Program-made: the position numbers and the translations under genes | Shown here: positions 2,331 to 19,038 of the stretch, in pieces | How the letters are laid out: each line of letters starts with the position of its first letter | Numbering within the stretch: the first letter of the stretch is position 1 | Notes under the pieces: generated by a model | Seen by the model: the letters and a program-made list of their open reading frames with translations, nothing else | Told to the model about the DNA's origin: nothing | The model's database searches: none | Source: a virus | DNA length: 33,838 bases | Reading direction: 5' to 3' (one strand) | IMG/VR virus record: IMGVR_UViG_3300042549_001991 | Span: 1-33,838 of that record

Positions 2331-4460
2331 TCAATTTGCCACCTGGTCTTGTTGCCAATCTCCGAAGTGATCGGCGGCAAACCACACTACAGTTCGGCCA
2401 ACCTCGCGTGTTTTGACCTTGTGATTTCGTAGGGCAGCATCACGGCCAGCCTTCAATCCTTTATCGTCATAACGCTTTCCCAAGATGTCAGACAACTGAG
2501 AGGTGTTCAAACCAGGGTTGGCGGTGACGGCTTCAATCCACATATCTTCAAGGCCACGCTTCTTGGCCATCCGTGAGTCAACACCGCCAAGAGTTAGTGA
2601 GCGGGTTGTCTCGTCAAAGGTCAACTGTTGTTCCTCTTGAAGCACATCACGGCCATCGGCTGAGAAGAATCGGCCTTCATTAGTCTTTTTGAGTAGCCAA
2701 CGCACATCTGCCCAGTCATCAAGGCGTGTAGCTCCACGGGCGCGATCTATGCCGTTTTCCTGCGCTCTACCTGTGTGGATTGGTAAAACAAGGTTTGAGA
2801 CACCTGCACGCTCTTTGATGACATCGAGCGTGTCTAGGAACACGCCAACATCGCTGTTTGAGTTTTCATCGCCACATCCTGTGAAGGCGCGGGCAAATGG
2901 GTCAAGAATCCAAGTTTGGGCATCTAAGTCTTTTAAGATGGAAACAACTAAATCCTCAACACGACTAACGATAAGTGGCAATCGCTTGCCTCTAAGGTGA
3001 ACTAGGGTAATTTTGTCACTGTTCTCAATTGCCACATCATTCATCCAGCGGCGATACTGGTTCTCTGAAACTTCATAGTTAAAGATAACAACGCGACCCT
3101 TATGTTCAGGTTGGGCAAAGTAATTAAGGAACTGTGTGCCATCTGCCAGTGAGCGTGCTAGTGAGTTGATTAAGGTGGTCTTTCCAGCCTTGTATTGGGC
3201 AGTCAAGGTCACATTGGCCCCTGTTGGGAATACATCCTTGATTGTCCACTTAACTTCCTCTATGGGCAGTTTCAGCTCGTCTGTGAGTGTCTTTACATAA
3301 GTTGGCTGGTGATAATTACTTGCCGCTTCTTCTTGGTCAAGTAGTTTCTTGGCGGTGCGCTTGGCGCGGGCTAGTTTGATTTCCTGTTGTGTGAGGTAAT
3401 CAATGTCAATGCCATCGCCTACGCCACCCGCAACGCCTGATTCAATGATCTCTCCAGTTACAGGTGAGTAAGTGTATTCAGCCAAATCGCTCGTGTTAGC
3501 GCCATTGCCATATCCCAAGAATCTCAATGCTTGTGCGGCTTGCTTGAAGTCATCGTGATGATGAAGGTGAGCATAGACTGCAAACTTTGAGTAGGACTTA
3601 TTGGCCTCAAATGTGGTGCTGGTTGAGAACACATAGAAAGTGTCGTAACCACCGTGGTTGGTACTTGCGCTGATGCCTTCATCTTTATTGGGTCTGCGCC
3701 AAAGAGTCTTTTCGGCTTGGGTGAATACCTTTTTCCAGCCAATAGGCTCAAGGATTTCTTCCCAAGTCATTCGTGCGTTGTAATCATCGCCAGGTAACGC
3801 TGGGTTAAATTCGCGCTTGGTCAACTCTTGCTTGGTAATTTCAGCTTTTGGCATTTCATCAAAAGTTGCCAAGATTGTGAACAATTCATTCATTTCATCT
3901 GTTGTGATGGTTGGAATTGTCTCAATTGAACCTGCAATCATTGACCACGATTTACCTGACGGGTGGGCGGTGCCACCTGACGGTGCGCAGATGCTAAAAC
4001 CACCCGCAGCGCGTGTTTCAATCAGGCAACCGCCATCTTCACCAGGCTTTGATGCCAGTTTTGTGTTTCCGTCAATTGCAGAGCCATCTACCTTAACAAG
4101 AAAGTGAATTCCACCTGACGGTGTTGCCTCTGTGTAGCCGTCAACAATGCTTTGCCATAAATCTTCAAGCCCAGCCAATTTAATTGCCTCTGCAGCTCGT
4201 AAATGCAGTTTCTGTTCCACTGCTCGGCCTTCAAACTCAATCATCAAAAGATTGCCTGAAATAGGACCAGTGACAACGCCTAAGCCTTGAACAGTGTCAT
4301 TGTTAAACCAAGTCAGTAGCTCGTCTTGGGTTGGCTGGCGATCTTGAAACTCTTTCCAAGAAGATAAGCCTGGGCGCTTAGAGCCGTCAGGTGCTACGGG
4401 TACAACAACAATGCCTTGTGTAGCAAAGCGAAGTGCAGTTGTTAAGATTTCATTGGTCAT
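2331..4460 (-). CDS. Bifunctional DNA primase/polymerase fused to RepA-like helicase ATPase
   Basis: A 709-residue replication protein. The first ~230 residues resemble the archaeo-eukaryotic primase (prim-pol) domain: a conserved N-terminus, GVVTGPISGN and an acidic E75-x-E77 pair where many relatives have D-x-D, then GGIHF with the likely catalytic histidine. The C-terminal half is a RecA-fold RepA/DnaB-like ATPase with Walker A AQYKAGKTT near residue 420, a FNYEVSENQ segment and a WILDPFARAF Walker-B-like strand near 517, ending in a winged-helix-like tail. Known relatives prime and unwind phage DNA. I prefer the ATG at 4460, which is preceded by GGGGGAAG and gives an 11-nt overlap with the methyltransferase part; the in-frame ATG at 4496 lacks a site. 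It is the only polymerase-like gene seen. Confidence 0.88.
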   Translation of the reverse strand: MTNEILTTALRFATQGIVVVPVAPDGSKRPGLSSWKEFQDRQPTQDELLTWFNNDTVQGLGVVTGPISGNLLMIEFEGRAVEQKLHLRAAEAIKLAGLEDLWQSIVDGYTEATPSGGIHFLVKVDGSAIDGNTKLASKPGEDGGCLIETRAAGGFSICAPSGGTAHPSGKSWSMIAGSIETIPTITTDEMNELFTILATFDEMPKAEITKQELTKREFNPALPGDDYNARMTWEEILEPIGWKKVFTQAEKTLWRRPNKDEGISASTNHGGYDTFYVFSTSTTFEANKSYSKFAVYAHLHHHDDFKQAAQALRFLGYGNGANTSDLAEYTYSPVTGEIIESGVAGGVGDGIDIDYLTQQEIKLARAKRTAKKLLDQEEAASNYHQPTYVKTLTDELKLPIEEVKWTIKDVFPTGANVTLTAQYKAGKTTLINSLARSLADGTQFLNYFAQPEHKGRVVIFNYEVSENQYRRWMNDVAIENSDKITLVHLRGKRLPLIVSRVEDLVVSILKDLDAQTWILDPFARAFTGCGDENSNSDVGVFLDTLDVIKERAGVSNLVLPIHTGRAQENGIDRARGATRLDDWADVRWLLKKTNEGRFFSADGRDVLQEEQQLTFDETTRSLTLGGVDSRMAKKRGLEDMWIEAVTANPGLNTSQLSDILGKRYDDKGLKAGRDAALRNHKVKTREVGRTVVWFAADHFGDWQQDQVAN

Positions 4461-5088
4461 CTTCCCCCACCATTCTTGAAATAATCCACTCAACAACAGG
4501 CACCGCTACCGCGTTGCCCATTTGCTTATAGCGGTTTGAATCTGCCTGTCCATCTGTCCAGTTATCAGGAAACCCTTGAAGGCGCTCACATTCAACTGGT
4601 GTCAATCTGCGCACGACTGATTCAGTTGCTACACCGTGACCACTTACGCGATCAAGTGTGAACATTGGTGAGCCATCTTCGCTAAAACCTTTACCTTGTG
4701 GCCCTGATGTATCAGCTCGACCAATTACTGTTCCTTGAATTGGAATTGCAACAGATTGCCCACCAGTGCGATCAAGAGTGTAGGCAGGTGCATCTTGCTC
4801 ACCAATGCCTAAACCATTTTGATTTTTTTCAATCTCTCTGCCGTCTTGTATAGGAAATACCATAGGCACATTCCCACCCCCTGTTCCGTATCGTGAAATA
4901 ACTGTTGGCACAATGCCATCTTCATATACCCGCACATCATTTACACGGGTGCCATCAATAATTAAAACTGTTGCGTAAGCCTCACCATTGTTATCCATTG
5001 CGTTCAATGTTGGCACTACCCCCCCCGCTATCCAAGATTCATAATCTGTAACACTTTGCGCTCTCTTAGCTTTCGTGAAGAACAACAT
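4450..5088 (-). CDS. DNA cytosine-5 methyltransferase, C-terminal part
   Basis: A 212-residue ORF with the end of a C5-cytosine methyltransferase: motif IX (RRLTPVECERLQGFPDNWT, residues 160-178) and motif X (YKQMGNAVAVPV, from 187). Before these are several ~30-residue units of the form x-TL-x-R-x-GG...V, which continue the target-recognition region begun in the upstream gene. It lies in the +1 frame relative to the N-terminal ORF and overlaps its end by 23 nt. It cannot be active alone because it lacks the cofactor site and catalytic cysteine. It is either made from its own ATG (5088) as a second subunit, as in two-chain enzymes such as M.AquI, or joined by frameshifting. A run of eight G lies at 5019-5026 but cannot by itself restore one frame. 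Confidence 0.85.
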   Translation of the reverse strand: MLFFTKAKRAQSVTDYESWIAGGVVPTLNAMDNNGEAYATVLIIDGTRVNDVRVYEDGIVPTVISRYGTGGGNVPMVFPIQDGREIEKNQNGLGIGEQDAPAYTLDRTGGQSVAIPIQGTVIGRADTSGPQGKGFSEDGSPMFTLDRVSGHGVATESVVRRLTPVECERLQGFPDNWTDGQADSNRYKQMGNAVAVPVVEWIISRMVGEDDQ

Positions 5089-5947
5089 TATCTTCAGGCC
5101 TTTTGTAAGAGGTAGCAGTAAGTGTTGTTACACCTTCGGTGTATTTTGCAAATCCTGATTGACCATAAACTGCGCTATCAATCAAAATAGTTTCACTACC
5201 ACCACCTAGATCACCGCCACCTGCTCGCAATGTGGCTGATACTTTTTCATTTTCTGTATATTCAGCAAAACTTGATGGACTAAATGAAGTTACTGCTGCG
5301 CTACTGTCTCCAGCGCCTGTTGTAATTGCGGTGGCAGTGTCTTTTCTCGGCGATTTGCTCTGCGCAAGATACCCTGCGCGGCTTTGGGCGATAGCGAGTA
5401 TTTCTTCAGGTGATCTCCCTGAGTTTCCAAAACATCCGACAATGAACACTCTACGGCGGCGTTGGGGTACTCCGAAGTGTTGAGCATCAAGCACCCTGTA
5501 TGCGACACGATACCCGCGCTCGACCAACGCTTCAAGAACAACGGCCATATCTTTTCCTTGATTGCTGGAAAGTAAACCAGGGACATTTTCGAGGATAAAA
5601 TTTTGCGCTCTTGTTTCGTCAAGCAATCGGCAGATTTCCCAGAATAATCCTGATCTAGCACCACCCAATCCTGCTCGTTTTCCAGCCACTGATAAATCTT
5701 GGCAGGGGAATCCGCCCGTGATGATTCCAGTTCTAGGTTCAAATCCTGCTGCAATGAGTTGTTCACCTGTTACCCCCGTTATATCTCCGAATATGGTTGA
5801 TTGTGGAAAATGCTTTTTCAATACTTCTTGTGCTTTTTTATCTATCTCTACTGATGCAACTACTTTCACACCATTGCGTTCTAGTGCTAAATCAAAACCA
5901 CCTACACCTGCGAATAAACTAACTGCAGTTCTCACTTGCTCCCCCAT
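5066..5947 (-). CDS. DNA cytosine-5 methyltransferase, N-terminal part
   Basis: A 293-residue ORF with C5-methyltransferase motifs I (LFAGVGGFD, 11-19), IV (GGFPCQ, catalytic C82), VI (ENV, 120-122) and VIII (QRRRR, 162-166), followed by the first part of the target-recognition region. That region has repeat-like units (FAEYTENEKVSATLRAGGG; FAKYTEGVTTLTA) resembling the serial target modules of multispecific phage methyltransferases. The frame ends at TAA (5066-5068) before motifs IX and X, which lie in the next ORF. The enzyme would protect phage DNA from restriction or mark it. Its ATG at 5947 lies inside the end of the FmdB-like gene. Confidence 0.9.
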   Translation of the reverse strand: MGEQVRTAVSLFAGVGGFDLALERNGVKVVASVEIDKKAQEVLKKHFPQSTIFGDITGVTGEQLIAAGFEPRTGIITGGFPCQDLSVAGKRAGLGGARSGLFWEICRLLDETRAQNFILENVPGLLSSNQGKDMAVVLEALVERGYRVAYRVLDAQHFGVPQRRRRVFIVGCFGNSGRSPEEILAIAQSRAGYLAQSKSPRKDTATAITTGAGDSSAAVTSFSPSSFAEYTENEKVSATLRAGGGDLGGGSETILIDSAVYGQSGFAKYTEGVTTLTATSYKRPEDNVVLHES

Positions 5948-8781: not shown

Positions 8782-9249
8782 TTAACGCAAGCCTTCGGAT
8801 GAGTCTTTTGTCTGTTGGTGTAATGGTGCTGCTCCTTGTTCAGTTGCCAACCATTTGCTCACAACTCGCTTCGCATAACTAGGCGATGTGTTCAATTGGC
8901 CTGCAATTTCGTTGACAGACAATCCTTTTTTATGTAATTGGATAATTCCAAGTGCCATACCTTTGAAGGTGACACCCCTATCCTTTACAACAAAAGCATC
9001 TCTTTCGGTTGGCGTTGAGCCACCCCAAATGCCGTGGATTATTTGTTTTTCTAGTGCGTACTCCAAACACTCCTTTTCGTGAATACAACTTGAGCATATT
9101 GCTTTGAGTTGGTGCAGTCTTTCTGCCTCTTGTGTGCGATTATCAGGAAAGAATAAATCCTTATCCTCAATCTCTGCACACTTGGCTTCAACAAATCGTG
9201 GTAGATCAACAAAGAAATCAAAAGTTCTCAATGCTTTTCTGCTAACCAT
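8782..9249 (-). CDS. WhiB-family transcription factor with extra C-terminal HTH
   Basis: A 155-residue protein. Residues ~24-87 are a WhiB domain: C24, C52-x2-C55 and C61 to ligate a [4Fe-4S] cluster, then the GIWGG turn (73-77) and TERDAF. WhiB proteins are restricted to actinobacteria and their phages and bind the primary sigma factor. After it, residues ~96-137 form a helix-turn-helix (GMALGIIQLHKKGLSVNEIAGQL) resembling resolvase/sigma region 4 folds; most small phage WhiB proteins lack this. It could therefore contact DNA directly while using the WhiB part to redirect host RNA polymerase. It overlaps the resolvase gene by 22 nt. Confidence 0.92.
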   Translation of the reverse strand: MVSRKALRTFDFFVDLPRFVEAKCAEIEDKDLFFPDNRTQEAERLHQLKAICSSCIHEKECLEYALEKQIIHGIWGGSTPTERDAFVVKDRGVTFKGMALGIIQLHKKGLSVNEIAGQLNTSPSYAKRVVSKWLATEQGAAPLHQQTKDSSEGLR

Positions 9250-9578
9250 TGTTGAAGGTCCTGGATTACCCAGGCTTTTTCAATCCCAGCGTTTCGGCGC
9301 TTGAGAATGATGTAATGCAATGGCACCTCGGATAAACCGCGAGCCTTTGCATAGTTTTCTGCCTCAACTTCAGCTTCACGCCAAAATTCAGGCAAACTTA
9401 TTGTTTTACGATTCTTGAGTTCAAGAATGTATGTTTTGCCAGCAACAACGGCGCACAAGTCACCTTCATCTGCCGACCCAGCCTTCACCAAGCGTTCGCA
9501 CAAAGCACCAGCACTACGAAGCCAACGCATAACATCGGTTTCAAATTGTGCGCCCTTGCGCCCGTTGGGATTAGCCAT
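9228..9578 (-). CDS. Holliday-junction-resolvase-like PD-(D/E)XK nuclease
   Basis: A 116-residue nuclease with the short Hjc/resolvase layout: E13 in the first helix, D40 (EGDLCAVV), and the E53-x-K55 strand (ILELKNRK). Proteins of this size in actinophages are annotated as Holliday junction resolvases or RecB-like endonucleases. It probably processes recombination intermediates, alongside endonuclease VII near the end of the same operon. It begins 4 nt after the 121-residue gene. Confidence 0.75.
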   Translation of the reverse strand: MANPNGRKGAQFETDVMRWLRSAGALCERLVKAGSADEGDLCAVVAGKTYILELKNRKTISLPEFWREAEVEAENYAKARGLSEVPLHYIILKRRNAGIEKAWVIQDLQQWLAEKH

Positions 9579-9582
9579 TGAG

Positions 9583-9948
9583 TTATTTAACCGCTTTCAA
9601 TGATGGGTAGTTGCCTTGAGCCTCGCGCCCAATGCGTGCAAACTTAACTGCTCGAATCAAATCTTCAGCCAAAATCAACGCCTCTTGCTCGCTCATATTG
9701 CAAACCAATGGTGCGTTCTCGCCTAAGTTCTCACGGGCATTATCTAGGTGTTCAAAGTAGTTTTCAGATTTAACTGAGCGATCTGCTGAATGGCGCAATA
9801 AATCCAAATCATCTAATTCGTAGGCGCCCACAACATCTTGGACTAAATCCTTTACAGCATCTTGTTCTTCAAGATATAGGGCAATACTGCCATCTGAATG
9901 ATTATGAATTGAAAACAGCGGTTCGCGTGCTTGCTTTTCAAAATTCAT
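9583..9948 (-). CDS. Hypothetical acidic protein (121 aa)
   Basis: A 121-residue acidic protein with a short beta start (PLFSIHNHSDGSIALYLEE) followed by helices. No family or catalytic motif is recognised. Its ATG overlaps the stop of the 30-residue membrane peptide gene as ATGA, so the two may be coupled. Confidence 0.6.
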   Translation of the reverse strand: MNFEKQAREPLFSIHNHSDGSIALYLEEQDAVKDLVQDVVGAYELDDLDLLRHSADRSVKSENYFEHLDNARENLGENAPLVCNMSEQEALILAEDLIRAVKFARIGREAQGNYPSLKAVK

Positions 9949-10103: not shown

Positions 10104-10652
10104 CTAAAGGCGCTGAATTTCTATCTGAAAAGGTGGGGCGGTGTTGATGTCGTATTTAGCAGCAATTGCCAGCGCCTCAAGAATCCGATCAGTTGCCCAA
10201 TCCGATTGGGCAAGGTTGGGCAGTTGCCCCGCCAATGCGCCAAGCGCGTAGGCAGAGCCACTGCCAACCCCATAGAGGCCATCGGCGCTTTGGGTCACAC
10301 TCAAGTCATCGCCAATTTCAAATACATTGCCAGCAAATGCCAGCAGGTATGAGTAACTAATTCCCTCTTTAGTGTAATCAAATCCCTGCAACTTAAATGC
10401 GGCAATAATGCTTGGGATGATCTTTCTGCCCATAAAGGTAACTGGGTTGGTGCCATCGTAGGCTGGTGGTGTCCAGTTGTAGGTCAAAACATCCCCTGGC
10501 CGACAGTCACCGCTTACAGCTAACAGGTACTTCTTTAGCTTTATAATCTTGGGTGTGCTGGGCGAAATGATGCGCTTATCCCCATCTGTCACCTGAGAGT
10601 CTGCCCCTAGAATGGCAAAATCAGGCCCCTGGTAGGCGATTAGCGTGGTCAT
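10104..10652 (-). CDS. Proteasome beta/HslV-like Ntn hydrolase
   Basis: A 182-residue Ntn-hydrolase of proteasome beta/HslV type. From the ATG at 10652 the protein begins M-TTLIAYQG; after Met removal Thr1 would be the nucleophile. Counting from it, D17 (GADSQ), K34 at the place of Lys33 (PKIIKL), G47 (SGD), a GVGSGSAYALGALAG segment matching the S129 region, and YDINT matching the D166 region are all present. An in-frame GTG at 10715 would add a 21-residue propeptide, as host beta subunits have, so that start is possible. It heads the leftward early operon behind a 15-bp leader stem-loop. It could degrade or process host or phage proteins, or mix with host proteasome rings; the target is unknown. 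Confidence 0.75.
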   Translation of the reverse strand: MTTLIAYQGPDFAILGADSQVTDGDKRIISPSTPKIIKLKKYLLAVSGDCRPGDVLTYNWTPPAYDGTNPVTFMGRKIIPSIIAAFKLQGFDYTKEGISYSYLLAFAGNVFEIGDDLSVTQSADGLYGVGSGSAYALGALAGQLPNLAQSDWATDRILEALAIAAKYDINTAPPFQIEIQRL

Positions 10653-10669
10653 AGGCCAAGTGTAGGGGT

Positions 10670-10720
10670 AAGGCGTGAAAACCCTAGCAATTCCCCAATT
10701 TCTTCGGGTTTCCACGCCTT
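10670..10720 (-). promoter_or_regulatory. 15-bp leader stem-loop before the proteasome-like gene
   Basis: AAGGCGTGGAAACCC (10720-10706 on the minus strand) pairs with GGGTTTTCACGCCTT (10684-10670) over 15 positions, all Watson-Crick but one G-U, with a 21-nt loop. It begins about where a transcript from the predicted promoter would start and ends 17 nt before the ATG. It could stabilise the 5' end, control translation, or be an operator. Confidence 0.6.
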
Positions 10721-10726
10721 AATCCG

Positions 10727-10755
10727 ACCCTAACACGCCCAAAAAGCGTTATCAA
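10727..10755 (-). promoter_or_regulatory. Predicted leftward early promoter
   Basis: On the minus strand TTGATA (10755-10750) is followed after exactly 17 nt by TAGGGT (10732-10727). The -35 has one mismatch to consensus and the -10 keeps the conserved T-A...T positions. It would place the transcript start near 10720, at the foot of the leader stem-loop. Confidence 0.5.
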
Positions 10756-14531: not shown

Positions 14532-17500
14532 TTACAACTCCGCACTAAATCCAACATAGCCACTTGCGCTGCCATTGTTAATTATGAAATAAGGACGATA
14601 TTGGGTTAAACCAGTAATTCCTGAAGCGTTAATTGAACCAACTTGAACGCCTGATTGTTGAGACAATAAGGCTAAAGTTAAACTTGAAGATATAATGCTT
14701 ACACCATCGTATAAAGCAACAGTTGAATAATCAATTGAAGTTGGTACTACTCGCATTTGTACAGGTAATTTCATTTCAATATAGGCTTGGTTGGTTGCGT
14801 TAGCAATTCCCTGACCAATGTGGGAGTACGCATCTCCGCCTGTATTTCGCACATAATACCGCTGACACGCCGCGAGTTCACCCTGGATGGTGCCAGTTGC
14901 AGTTTGGAACGCGGTGGCTACGGTGCCTGCTTCAAGTTGGAATCCCCACAAATCAAAAGTATTTGTTTGGATGCCAAGAGAACCAGTGCGACTATCAAAG
15001 GCAGACCCAGCAGATACCCAAATGTTGTATTCAAGCATTGAATTATTGTTGGTGCCAAGAGTTTTGCCTGTTATTGAAGGCAAGGTGATTGTTCGTGAAT
15101 AACGCACCCAAGATGTTGTTATTGCAAACTTTTGAGTTCCACCAGCGTTTTCAACTGTTGCTGAAGGTGAGCCACCTGTTCCAAAATATTGTCTAAATTC
15201 AAATGACACATTGGGTGTACCACTTGCAGCCTTAGCCCAAAAAGAAACTGTAACCGTTTGACCTGCTAAAGTTCTTACATCTTCAACTGTTTGTCCAAAG
15301 ATTGTTCCTGCGAAACCTGAACTTTGACCAGTTGTAACTGCACGCAAATATTGCTTGGCTTCGTAGCCTGCTACTGGCGCAGTTCCTGGTGTAAATTGTT
15401 GCACCGAGAAAGTAGAACTTCCACTCAATACATTCACACCAGTAAATCTGTCAACAATATAAACAGAGGTTTCTGTTGACAAAGTTTGACTTGAAAAAGC
15501 CCTTTGATTGTAGAAACAATCACCGTTAATGATTCTGTTTTTCCCAGCAAAGAACGAAGAAGTATTCAGCGGATAGCGTGCATCTGCCTCTGCCTGGGTG
15601 TAGGTATTAGCCACATTGAAAGCGCCATAGGCCACTACAACCAAAGTGTCATTTAGGGTTGCAGCAAGTGCCAACACAACTGATGTGCCATTGGTAGCGG
15701 TGTAGTCGGTAGTGCGTACAAGAAGCACACCGTTGAGATAAACCTGCTCGGCACCTACTGTGTAGGCAAGAGTCAATGAGTTTAGATCGCTGCCGCTAAA
15801 TGTTGTTTGTCCAGCGGTGGCACTGTACGAGTATGAAACAGCAGCGGCGGCACCTGCAGCGCCGCTGGCACCTGTAGCACCAGTAGCACCGACTGTTCCA
15901 GTAGCGCCTGTGGCTCCTGCAGGGCCTGTAGCTCCAGCAGGTCCAGTGGCACCTTCAGGTCCAGTAGCACCAACAGGTCCAGTAGCACCCGTAGCGCCAT
16001 CAACACCAGCAGGTCCAGTAGCACCTATCGGTCCAGTAGCTCCAATAGGACCAGTAGCACCAACAGCGCCAGTGGCACCAACAACACCAGTAGGTCCAAC
16101 ATCTCCAGTTACTCCCTGCGGTCCAGTAGCACCAACGGGTCCAGTAGCACCAATTGGTCCAGTGACACCAACTAAACCTTGTTCACCTTGAATTCCTTGT
16201 GGCCCAGTGGCTCCAACAGGTCCAGTAGCACCTGCAGCACCTGATGGGCCAGTGGCACCATCAATGCCTGCAGGCCCTTGTGCGCCAGTGGCACCGATTG
16301 GGCCAGTGGCACCCGTAGCACCATCTGCACCGTTTGCACCGCTTGCACCAGCAGGTCCAGTAGCACCAATTGGTCCAGTTGGACCAGTAGGGCCAGCAAC
16401 GGTTGAAGCGGCACCTGATGCACCAGTAGCACCGATTGGTCCAGTTGGACCTGTAACGCCAGTAGCACCAATTGGTCCAGTAGCACCAGTTGGGCCAGTT
16501 GGGCCGACAGGGCCTTCAACGGCTTGCAGTGAGGTAATTACATAAGAATAATGTTGTGAGCCTTCAGTGTAAAAGTTAATTGTTCGAGCAACGCCATCAT
16601 CATTGCGAGCATATAATTCAACAATCATACGATCTGTTGCAGATACTGCCGAACTTGGCAACACAATTTCAAGCTGCGTAAGCATTGGATTTGCGCCATC
16701 GTAAGGAATTAAAGTTGCATCTGTATCGCCAATTGTGGCAAGAACAGTGCCTGCATTATTTGCTAACTTCAAGCGTGCAAAAGCATAAACATCTGAACCG
16801 TTTGTTGGCTTTGAAAAGAATACTGAAAAGCGCTGAGCGCCTGCAGGAATGAGCGTAAAACCAAATGGCTCGCTGATGTATTGCTGCATCAGTTCAGTTG
16901 AGTTGCCAGCAACAGAGTTTGTGACAGTTGCCATTGCAGCAGTTGTTGGTTCAGTACCTAATTGCTTAAATCCAGCAAGTTCAGTAATTGATTCGTTAAA
17001 ATAATAGTAACGGCCAGTTGTGTAGCCTTGAGGACCAGTAGCACCAGTAGCACCTGTTGGACCGCTAACACCTGTTGCACCAATAGGGCCAGTAGCACCA
17101 GTAGCACCAATTGGACCTGTAACACCTGTTGGTCCAGGAACGATTGAATCTGCACCTGTTGGACCTGTAGAACCTGTTGGACCAGTAACACCAGTTGCAC
17201 CAACTAAACCTTGTGGGCCTGTTGCGCCAACTGGACCTGTAGCACCGATTGGGCCAGTAACACCGATTGGACCAGTAACACCGATTGGGCCAGTAACACC
17301 TACGGCGCCTGTAGCACCTACAGGGCCAGTAGCACCGATTGGGCCAGTAACACCAATTTCACCTTGAATTCCTTGAATTCCTTGTTGGCCCGTAGCCCCG
17401 ATTGGACCTGTTGAACCTGTTGGTCCAACTGGACCTGTAACACCGATTGGACCAGTAACACCAATAGGACCTGTTGCACCTATCGGACCAGTAGCACCTA

Positions 17501-17651
17501 TCGGACCTGTAACACCGATTGGACCTGTGACACCTGTAGCACCTACTGGACCAGTAGCACCTGCAGGCCCCGATGGACCTTGTGGGCCTTGTGCATTAGA
17601 AATAGTGACATCAATATCTTCAGTGTTAATTGTTACAACGCTTGTGGCCAT
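14532..17651 (-). CDS. Collagen-like tail fibre
   Basis: A 1039-residue fibre. After 18 residues, a Gly-x-y collagen-like shaft runs to about residue 208 ([14 protein letters not shown] repeats). A non-collagen domain of about 170 residues follows (~209-378), then a second collagen-like shaft to ~602. Next come a fibre domain typical of phage tails ([12 protein letters not shown] ... [13 protein letters not shown] ...AEADARYP) and the KNRIINGD receptor-binding-like domain shared with the next fibre. Phage collagen-like repeats form triple helices without hydroxyproline. It overlaps the preceding structural gene by one base. Confidence 0.88.
15845..17597 (-). repeat. Gly-x-y coding repeats (two blocks)
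   Basis: The DNA here is a low-complexity array of nine-base units coding GATGPx or GPIGVT, in two blocks of about 17597-17030 and 16510-15845, split by ~515 nt of unique sequence. Unit copies differ mostly at third positions, so the protein repeat is selected while the DNA drifts. Such tracts can expand or contract by recombination and vary fibre length. Confidence 0.85.
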
Positions 17652-18019: not shown

Positions 18020-18205
18020 TTACTTTGAGCCTTTGCCAAAATCTGTTGCTGAAGCATCCAGCCATTTTAGGATTGGACCAGCAGCGCCAGCAATGGCAGC
18101 CATTCCAAGAGTTTCTAAATTAGTCTCGCCTGCAAGATATAGGGCAATTGCTGCCGCTGCTGCTGCGCGAAACCAAGAAAGTGAGATTTGCTTAAATTGT
18201 TCCAT
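18020..18205 (-). CDS. Holin-like small membrane protein
   Basis: A 61-residue protein with two hydrophobic stretches (FRAAAAAAIALYLAG and LGMAAIAGAAGPILKWL) and a basic C-terminus, preceded by AAGGGAG. It follows the endolysin gene after a 56-nt gap. Size and topology fit a small holin, but sequence does not prove it. Confidence 0.55.
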   Translation of the reverse strand: MEQFKQISLSWFRAAAAAAIALYLAGETNLETLGMAAIAGAAGPILKWLDASATDFGKGSK

Positions 18206-18261
18206 TATGTGACTCCCTTGTTGTTTTGACCTGTAAATTGTAAAACAGGCACAAATCGGTA

Positions 18262-18717
18262 TTAGTTTGCTTTTTTTGCAGGAACTGGAACCATTTTAGC
18301 ACCAACCTGCGTAACAATGCTTGGCTTTTTCATCCAACAAAACCACGGTGAAGTGTCATTGGCAAATTCTTCTTTGATTGAAATGTGAAGGTGCTTATGG
18401 TGCTGGTTTGAACCCGTGTATTTGCGGTTGCCTTGCTTGGCCTTTTCCTTTGACCAAATAAAACCGCTGAAAATTAAGTAATCTACTCGCTTATCTTCTT
18501 TTAGCTTTTCGAAGATGTCAGCGCAATCAATACCGTGTTTAGGATCGTGGGTAAGGTCAACGGCCAAACCTGTATTGTGATCTGAATTCGGGCTTTGAAC
18601 CTGATGGGCAGCCGATGGCAATAACCCATCTGATGCCTTCTTGCGCATTGGCTTCAGGGCGGTGGCTTGGCGTAGCACTGCCACTGCCGCTGGTGTTGCT
18701 TTCTTTACTAATTTCAT
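18262..18717 (-). CDS. Endolysin, M15-type peptidase
   Basis: A 151-residue peptidase of the VanY / L-alanyl-D-glutamate endopeptidase type: SDHNTGLAVD (H47, D54 as zinc ligands) and HKHLHIS with H109 or H111 completing the zinc site. It cuts peptidoglycan stem peptides. Neither a signal peptide nor a separate wall-binding domain is obvious, so it probably depends on a holin. It lies between two membrane genes, and its ATG overlaps the stop of the 64-residue membrane protein. Confidence 0.88.
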   Translation of the reverse strand: MKLVKKATPAAVAVLRQATALKPMRKKASDGLLPSAAHQVQSPNSDHNTGLAVDLTHDPKHGIDCADIFEKLKEDKRVDYLIFSGFIWSKEKAKQGNRKYTGSNQHHKHLHISIKEEFANDTSPWFCWMKKPSIVTQVGAKMVPVPAKKAN

Positions 18718-18908
18718 TTTTTCCCCAATAGGTCTAAGACAATTTCCATTTGCGTTTCAAGGCGATTAACCGCATCTTTGAGACTGCTGCCACCGTTGGG
18801 CTTGAGTTCGTTCAAATAATGCTTTACAAGCCATCGAACTGCCCCTGCAAATCCACTTACGATTGCAATGATAGAAACAATTAAGCCTGCCCAGTTTGCT
18901 GGTGTCAT
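18714..18908 (-). CDS. Holin-like membrane protein with coiled-coil tail
   Basis: A 64-residue protein: one N-terminal membrane helix (WAGLIVSIIAIVSGFAGAVRWLV), then a hinge (KPNGGSS) and an amphipathic helix (LKDAVNRLETQMEIVLDLLGKK). This matches single-pass holin-type proteins upstream of endolysins in actinophages. GGGAG lies 10 nt ahead of the ATG at 18908, which I chose because the longer frame adds a non-hydrophobic start without a site. It overlaps the endolysin by 4 nt. Confidence 0.65.
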   Translation of the reverse strand: MTPANWAGLIVSIIAIVSGFAGAVRWLVKHYLNELKPNGGSSLKDAVNRLETQMEIVLDLLGKK

Positions 18909-18924
18909 TTGCGCGGTTCTCCCG

Positions 18925-19038
18925 TTATGAGTTAAGTGATGTGATTTGTGCTTTAAGAACTGCGTTTTCTTGGGCGAGTACGCCGATGGTGTCACGCATA
19001 TTCTTTAGAACTTCTTGAATATCTACTTCTTGTTCCAT
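18925..19038 (-). CDS. Small coiled-coil protein (37 aa)
   Basis: A 37-residue protein (MEQEVDIQEVLKNM...VLAQENAVLKAQI) with heptad-spaced leucines and valines, so a short coiled coil. It directly follows the S74-type fibre gene, with GGGGAAG before its start, and precedes the holin-like gene. It could be a fibre chaperone or a lysis partner; no family is recognised. Confidence 0.5.
   Translation of the reverse strand: MEQEVDIQEVLKNMRDTIGVLAQENAVLKAQITSLNS

Follow-up and report, generated by a model that had tools for sequence, protein, structure and literature searches.

A proteasome-like Ntn hydrolase at the head of an early-type gene block in a phage genome, and its relatives in freshwater actinophages

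Phage homologues of the proteasome subunits, PPH and AAH, have already been described without an assigned function (Fuchs et al. 2021, PMC8665760), and the phage gene analysed here is therefore not a first. The same authors caution against reading self-assembly or proteolysis into the term "proteasome-like". PPH is a phage-borne protein of about 140 residues that has no ATPase partner and no propeptide and lacks helix H2. AAH, the alphaproteobacterial and actinobacterial proteasome homologue, is a compact group I-like subunit with helices H1-H4 and no C-terminal extension. It occurs in Actinobacteria and in phages; Fuchs et al. (PMC8665760) found no Actinobacteria-specific phage with AAH. BPH, the betaproteobacterial homologue, is a bacterial chromosomal gene product of group I architecture with no known unfoldase. 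Actinobacteria are unmarked for HslV in Table 1 of Fuchs et al. (PMC8665760). Connectase, which also belongs to the proteasome-like family (PMC8665760), is without H1-H2 and has two extra helices inserted between strands S3 and S4.

The window, that is, the whole stretch of DNA analysed, comprises the 33,838 nucleotides of IMG/VR record IMGVR_UViG_3300042549_001991. Its minus-strand open reading frame 10652-10104 encodes 182 residues beginning MTTLIAY. The features of this locus are:

10104..10652, minus strand: gene for a proteasome-like Ntn (Thr) hydrolase, identified by Pfam, PHROG, AlphaFold, Foldseek, VIA and hhalign; its residues, in Met numbering, are T2 (nucleophile), D18, K35, G48 (oxyanion), S131, D168 and T171
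10659..10664, minus strand: -10-like box TACACT of predicted promoter P2, for a leaderless mRNA, 6 nt before the ATG, TANNNT being conserved
10670..10720, minus strand: hairpin with a conserved GGGG loop (AATTGGGGAATT), between P1 and P2, RNA fold z -6.44
10727..10755, minus strand: predicted sigma-70-type promoter P1, TTGATA-17-TAGGGT, conserved in relatives and directly before the hairpin

By its sequence and its predicted structure the 182-residue protein is a proteasome-like Ntn hydrolase with an intact catalytic layout. It scores 28 bits against PF00227 (Proteasome; Ntn clan), above the gathering score of 22.4 (E 2e-6), matches PHROG 1040, "peptidase HslV family", over its whole length (E 3.5e-24), and aligns with E. 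coli HslV by hhalign (E 2.4e-8), similarities that lie well beyond chance. The AlphaFold model, computed with 36 relatives as input (pLDDT 90.3, pTM 0.87), is predicted to form the four-layer alpha-beta-beta-alpha sandwich of proteasome beta subunits. BPH, HslV and 20S beta chains rank top among its Foldseek matches in the PDB, the best being BPH (5ovs, E 1.7e-10). VIA-align superimposed it on an archaeal 20S beta subunit (6z46) over 167 residues with a Z of 19.9 and an rmsd of 2.7, and on BPH with a Z of 19.5; overlays of 20S beta, BPH and HslV all lie at Z ~19-20. In the BPH and beta5 overlays, residue 2 of the model coincides with residue 1 of the target chain. The profile search and the monomer prediction that a preliminary description, made from the DNA letters, had proposed as checks both came out in favour of an Ntn hydrolase, with no different fold seen.

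The motifs named in that description are all present: the Thr after Met, D18 (D17 when Thr is counted as 1), K35 (K33), SGD at 47-49 and GSGSAYALGAL at 130-140. T2, D18, K35 and G48, equivalent to Thr1, Asp17, Lys33 and Gly47, are invariant among 36 diverse sequences down to 31% identity. The pairing of K35 with Lys33 was given by hhalign, with one residue extra relative to HslV. D168, equivalent to Asp166, is kept in the window clade and not throughout its sister clade. The median dN/dS of the gene is 0.118 and the maximum 0.282 over 1092 pairs, indicating purifying selection.

The assignment to a proteasome beta/HslV subunit held for the fold and the catalytic layout, but did not extend to HslV proper or 20S beta by NCBI curated cut-offs. 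The protein shares with HslV its fold, the MTT start, the T1/D17/K33/G47 layout and the GSG motif; however, identity is 20-24%, no HslU-type ATPase is found in the window, and the HslV models NF003964 and TIGR03692 score it at 26.7 and 23.6 bits where the cut-offs are 137 and 157.75, respectively. For 20S beta, TIGR03634 gives 17.2 bits against 224, and TIGR03690 is not listed for the window protein. BPH, the best structural match, is only ~20% identical. PPH is rejected on architecture, since the window protein is longer, at 182 residues, and does have an H2, 19 residues long (70-88) and preceded by H1 (50-59). All of H1-H4 are present, with no insertions and no extra C-terminal domain, which places the protein in group I and sets it apart from connectase. 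These are features that AAH shares, and the protein is possibly a member of that group; a difference is that the window clade infects Actinobacteria, whereas the AAH carriers of Fuchs et al. included no Actinobacteria-specific phage. It shows no difference from the definition of PHROG 1040 and PF00227, which match both the window protein and its sister-clade counterpart over nearly the whole length, and PHROG lists no tested function. We regard it as a typical member, recognised correctly, of a family that is known but has no functional explanation. A search of a defence-system library gave no match to it.

The longest form of the open reading frame starts at GTG 10715, which could have provided a propeptide. 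This start was rejected in favour of ATG 10652, since the 5' stretch is non-coding in relatives while the -10 box and Met-Thr-Thr are conserved. Met-Thr-Thr forms the first residues of all 58 extracted relatives, and a TANNNT box lies 6-7 nt 5' of the start codon in 72 of 72 distinct upstream regions. In three loci (L014, L020, L024) unrelated sequence replaces the stretch upstream of the ATG. The interval 10104-10755 originally proposed for the gene therefore contains the open reading frame and, beyond its ATG at 10652, ~100 bp that belong to the promoter and 5' region. No Shine-Dalgarno sequence was seen 5' of ATG 10652 in the window, which together with the conserved -10 box predicts a leaderless mRNA. 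The "good leftward promoter" noted previously corresponds to the conserved P1 (10755-10727), which a generic promoter scan did not pick up, but P1 is not the sole candidate, as the second, leaderless promoter at the ATG is predicted to drive the gene too.

The hairpin between the two promoters was found in 64 of the 72 upstream regions with 53 distinct stems, the GGGG loop being kept while the stem changes completely. An Rfam search of the window, hairpin included, gave no match; the element could be a small structured RNA, a leader element or a terminator. Separately, in four loci (L048, L049, L050, L057) the sequence TTATCCACAACCTGTGGATAA or a near variant stands where the hairpin is, upstream of the hydrolase gene. 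It comprises two DnaA-box-like sequences in inverted order and is possibly a replication origin.

The hydrolase gene is the first of a leftward early-type block, in agreement with the preliminary description, and is followed leftward by g9583, a RusA-like gene, a WhiB gene, a transglycosylase-like gene, a Cas4-type exonuclease and a primase/helicase. The position of the hydrolase in front of g9583-RusA-WhiB is conserved across the window clade. The head and tail genes sit away from this block and include a prohead protease of the S78 type. The features referred to below are:

9583..9948, minus strand: g9583, the next gene after the hydrolase, conserved, 121 residues, function unknown
9228..9578, minus strand: RusA-like Holliday junction resolvase (PHROG 244)
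8782..9249, minus strand: WhiB-like regulator (PF02467) with an extra C-terminal helix-turn-helix, the helix-turn-helix matches being weak and below cut-off
18020..18995, minus strand: lysis cassette, 71-76% identical to that of Planktophila phage LanE43AprE7
28893..29843, minus strand: S78 prohead serine protease (PF04586, E 4.5e-43), a maturation protease of the phage that is distinct from the hydrolase

The WhiB-like protein is longer than the usual phage WhiB. As had been noted, no partner of the HslU-type ATPase or alpha-subunit kind was found in the window: AAA_2 (PF07724), a profile that matched 14 of 14 control genomes, has no match there, and the single PF00227 match and single family-alignment match of the whole record are the hydrolase itself.

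The WhiB gene marks the host of the window phage as an actinobacterium. Its lysis cassette most resembles the one in the cultured Planktophila phage LanE43AprE7, the lysin being 76% identical and two small neighbours 75% and 71%, and the G+C content of 45.4% compares with 46.5% for the cultured host. Taken together these features make a host in the Nanopelagicales likely, and the host would most likely be Ca. Planktophila, very abundant lake bacteria. The records OX376640 and OX376641, of LanE43AprE7 and F5, carry strain names of PMC10202952. A literature search on proteasomes of acI bacteria found nothing.

We compared the hydrolase with its relatives in IMG/VR, where scans gave first 62 loci and then 80 kept of 203 stretches, and a scan with the LanE43AprE7 (E7) protein gave 80 kept of 144. 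Several hundred freshwater actinophage contigs carry a homologue, in two fixed genomic settings, and further kin are found in the actinophages DSL-LC01, Pumpernickel, Pitbull and Hum25. In the tree, which has long branches and unsure deeper joins, the window clade pairs with the E7 clade as its sister (92/89), and both lie next to the DSL, Pumpernickel and Pitbull proteins (85/83). In the separate lineage of DSL-LC01 (DSL-LC01/L126, L132, L133) the hydrolase gene likewise has a WhiB gene no more than ~1 kb away. Pattern scans of GTDB genomes with alignments of the window clade and of the other actinophages, which can miss distant kin, confirmed no bacterial relative.

The hydrolase diverges out of step with its surroundings. 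In the window clade, locus L059 has a hydrolase that is 60% identical between flanking genes averaging 88%, whereas L051 has one of 76% between flanks of 58%, a pattern that suggests allele exchange. The hydrolase alleles of L036, L051 and L059 appear to have been exchanged independently of the neighbouring genes. The stretch H3-H4 is the most variable part of the protein and falls into three length classes (proteins of 177, 182 and 187 residues), which suggests a changing partner or assembly surface.

We favour, at about an even chance for the explanation as a whole, an active, ATPase-free Thr peptidase that a lytic-type siphophage infecting Ca. Planktophila / Nanopelagicales would use early on for host takeover or counter-defence. 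The host methionine aminopeptidase would remove the Met and expose Thr1, as the MT start and the lack of a propeptide suggest. The subunits would probably form a small oligomer and cleave unfolded or specific proteins at peptide bonds, with no ATPase supplied by the phage; self-compartmentalisation and the degradation of defence proteins, both raised in the preliminary description, are inferences. The gene, first in the early-type block, would be transcribed from a leaderless promoter of its own, the early timing being suggested by gene order alone. This explanation rests on the fold, the conserved catalytic residues, purifying selection, the operon position, the lack of an HslU-type ATPase in the window and the separate S78 protease, and the WhiB gene near the hydrolase in the DSL-LC01 lineage is in keeping with it. 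The leaderless promoter and the location in an early-type block among genes for recombination, WhiB and replication make host takeover or counter-defence likelier than virion maturation.

The case for virion maturation comes from the sister clade, to which the cultured Ca. Planktophila phages LanE43AprE7 and F5 belong. Their homologues (OX376640/OX376641) are 33-35% identical to the window protein over the whole length, have the same fold and come from phages of the same host order, but stand behind the portal gene in phages without an S78 protease. The predicted E7-type structure (pLDDT 91.6) shows this fold with a Z of 19.2. In 79 of the 80 kept E7-clade loci (L129-L214) the homologue lies 18-97 bp behind the portal gene. 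None of 13 E7-clade records yielded an S78 protease, whereas all 9 window-clade records tested did, and each record tested for S78 has one hydrolase copy. Searches of nine E7-clade records for ClpP, S49 and S78_2 proteases found none; in a search of this clade for S77 prohead proteases no control was matched. A virion morphogenesis protease, cutting head, portal or internal virion proteins in place of a prohead protease, would fit this setting. For the window phage we consider it unlikely, since this phage and its nine tested clade mates have the S78 protease and their hydrolase gene stands in the early-type block, not in the head module.

The earlier suggestion that the enzyme processes phage proteins is thus improbable for the window phage but deserves consideration in the sister clade. 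Since T7, P22 and similar phages do without a prohead protease, absence of S78 proves little by itself, even for the sister clade. One clade has its copy in the head module, the other in the early-type block; this contrast, drawn from two clades, is a correlation that does not prove function, and with the homologue in the head module of the sister clade no single role for the family is obvious. It is conceivable, if doubtful, that the hydrolase of the E7/F5 clade is a head maturation protease, which would be the first prohead protease of Ntn fold, while its homologue works beside S78 from the early operon in the window clade, giving one family two jobs in the same host order.

The protein might instead be a non-proteolytic or highly specific Ntn enzyme, such as a connectase-like protein ligase or a processing enzyme with one substrate. 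Connectase's membership of the proteasome-like family and the lack of an ATPase partner in the window are in keeping with this, but the model has H1 and H2 and no two-helix insertion, and hence not the connectase architecture, and we hold this reading to be improbable.

A subunit that assembles together with the host 20S proteasome, blocks it or redirects it would account for the fold match to 20S beta subunits, mycobacterial ones included, and prcBA is known from many Actinobacteria (literature such as PMC8223512). A blocker, however, would not need Thr1, Asp17 and Lys33, all of which are invariant; the NCBIfam scores indicate no close relation to bacterial 20S beta; and an H3-H4 stretch that varies in length and sequence is a poor fit to a conserved host partner. 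We therefore consider interference with the host proteasome very unlikely, and the earlier suggestion that the phage protein replaces host beta subunits finds no support. That the phage adds an HslV-type protease chamber for a host HslU is most improbable of all, for although HslV is among the top Foldseek matches and lends its name to the PHROG, the protein scores 26.7 bits against the 137-bit HslV cut-off, and the lack of a mark for Actinobacteria under HslV in Table 1 of PMC8665760 means that no suitable HslU is expected in the host.

New here are the hundreds of hydrolase copies in freshwater actinophages, located either first in an early operon or adjacent to the portal gene. Their abundance, the two settings and the cultured phages add to the interest of the family: with two fixed settings, and one clade that includes phages cultured on their host, the role of phage proteasome homologues becomes testable in a real infection.

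Two further features of the window were observed. A cytosine methyltransferase extends over two overlapping open reading frames at 4450-5947, with its N-terminal part at 5066-5947 and its C-terminal part at 4450-5088, and its halves are matched separately in many relatives too. A 1039-residue collagen-like protein with GPTG/GATG repeats, probably a tail fibre, is encoded at 14532-17651.
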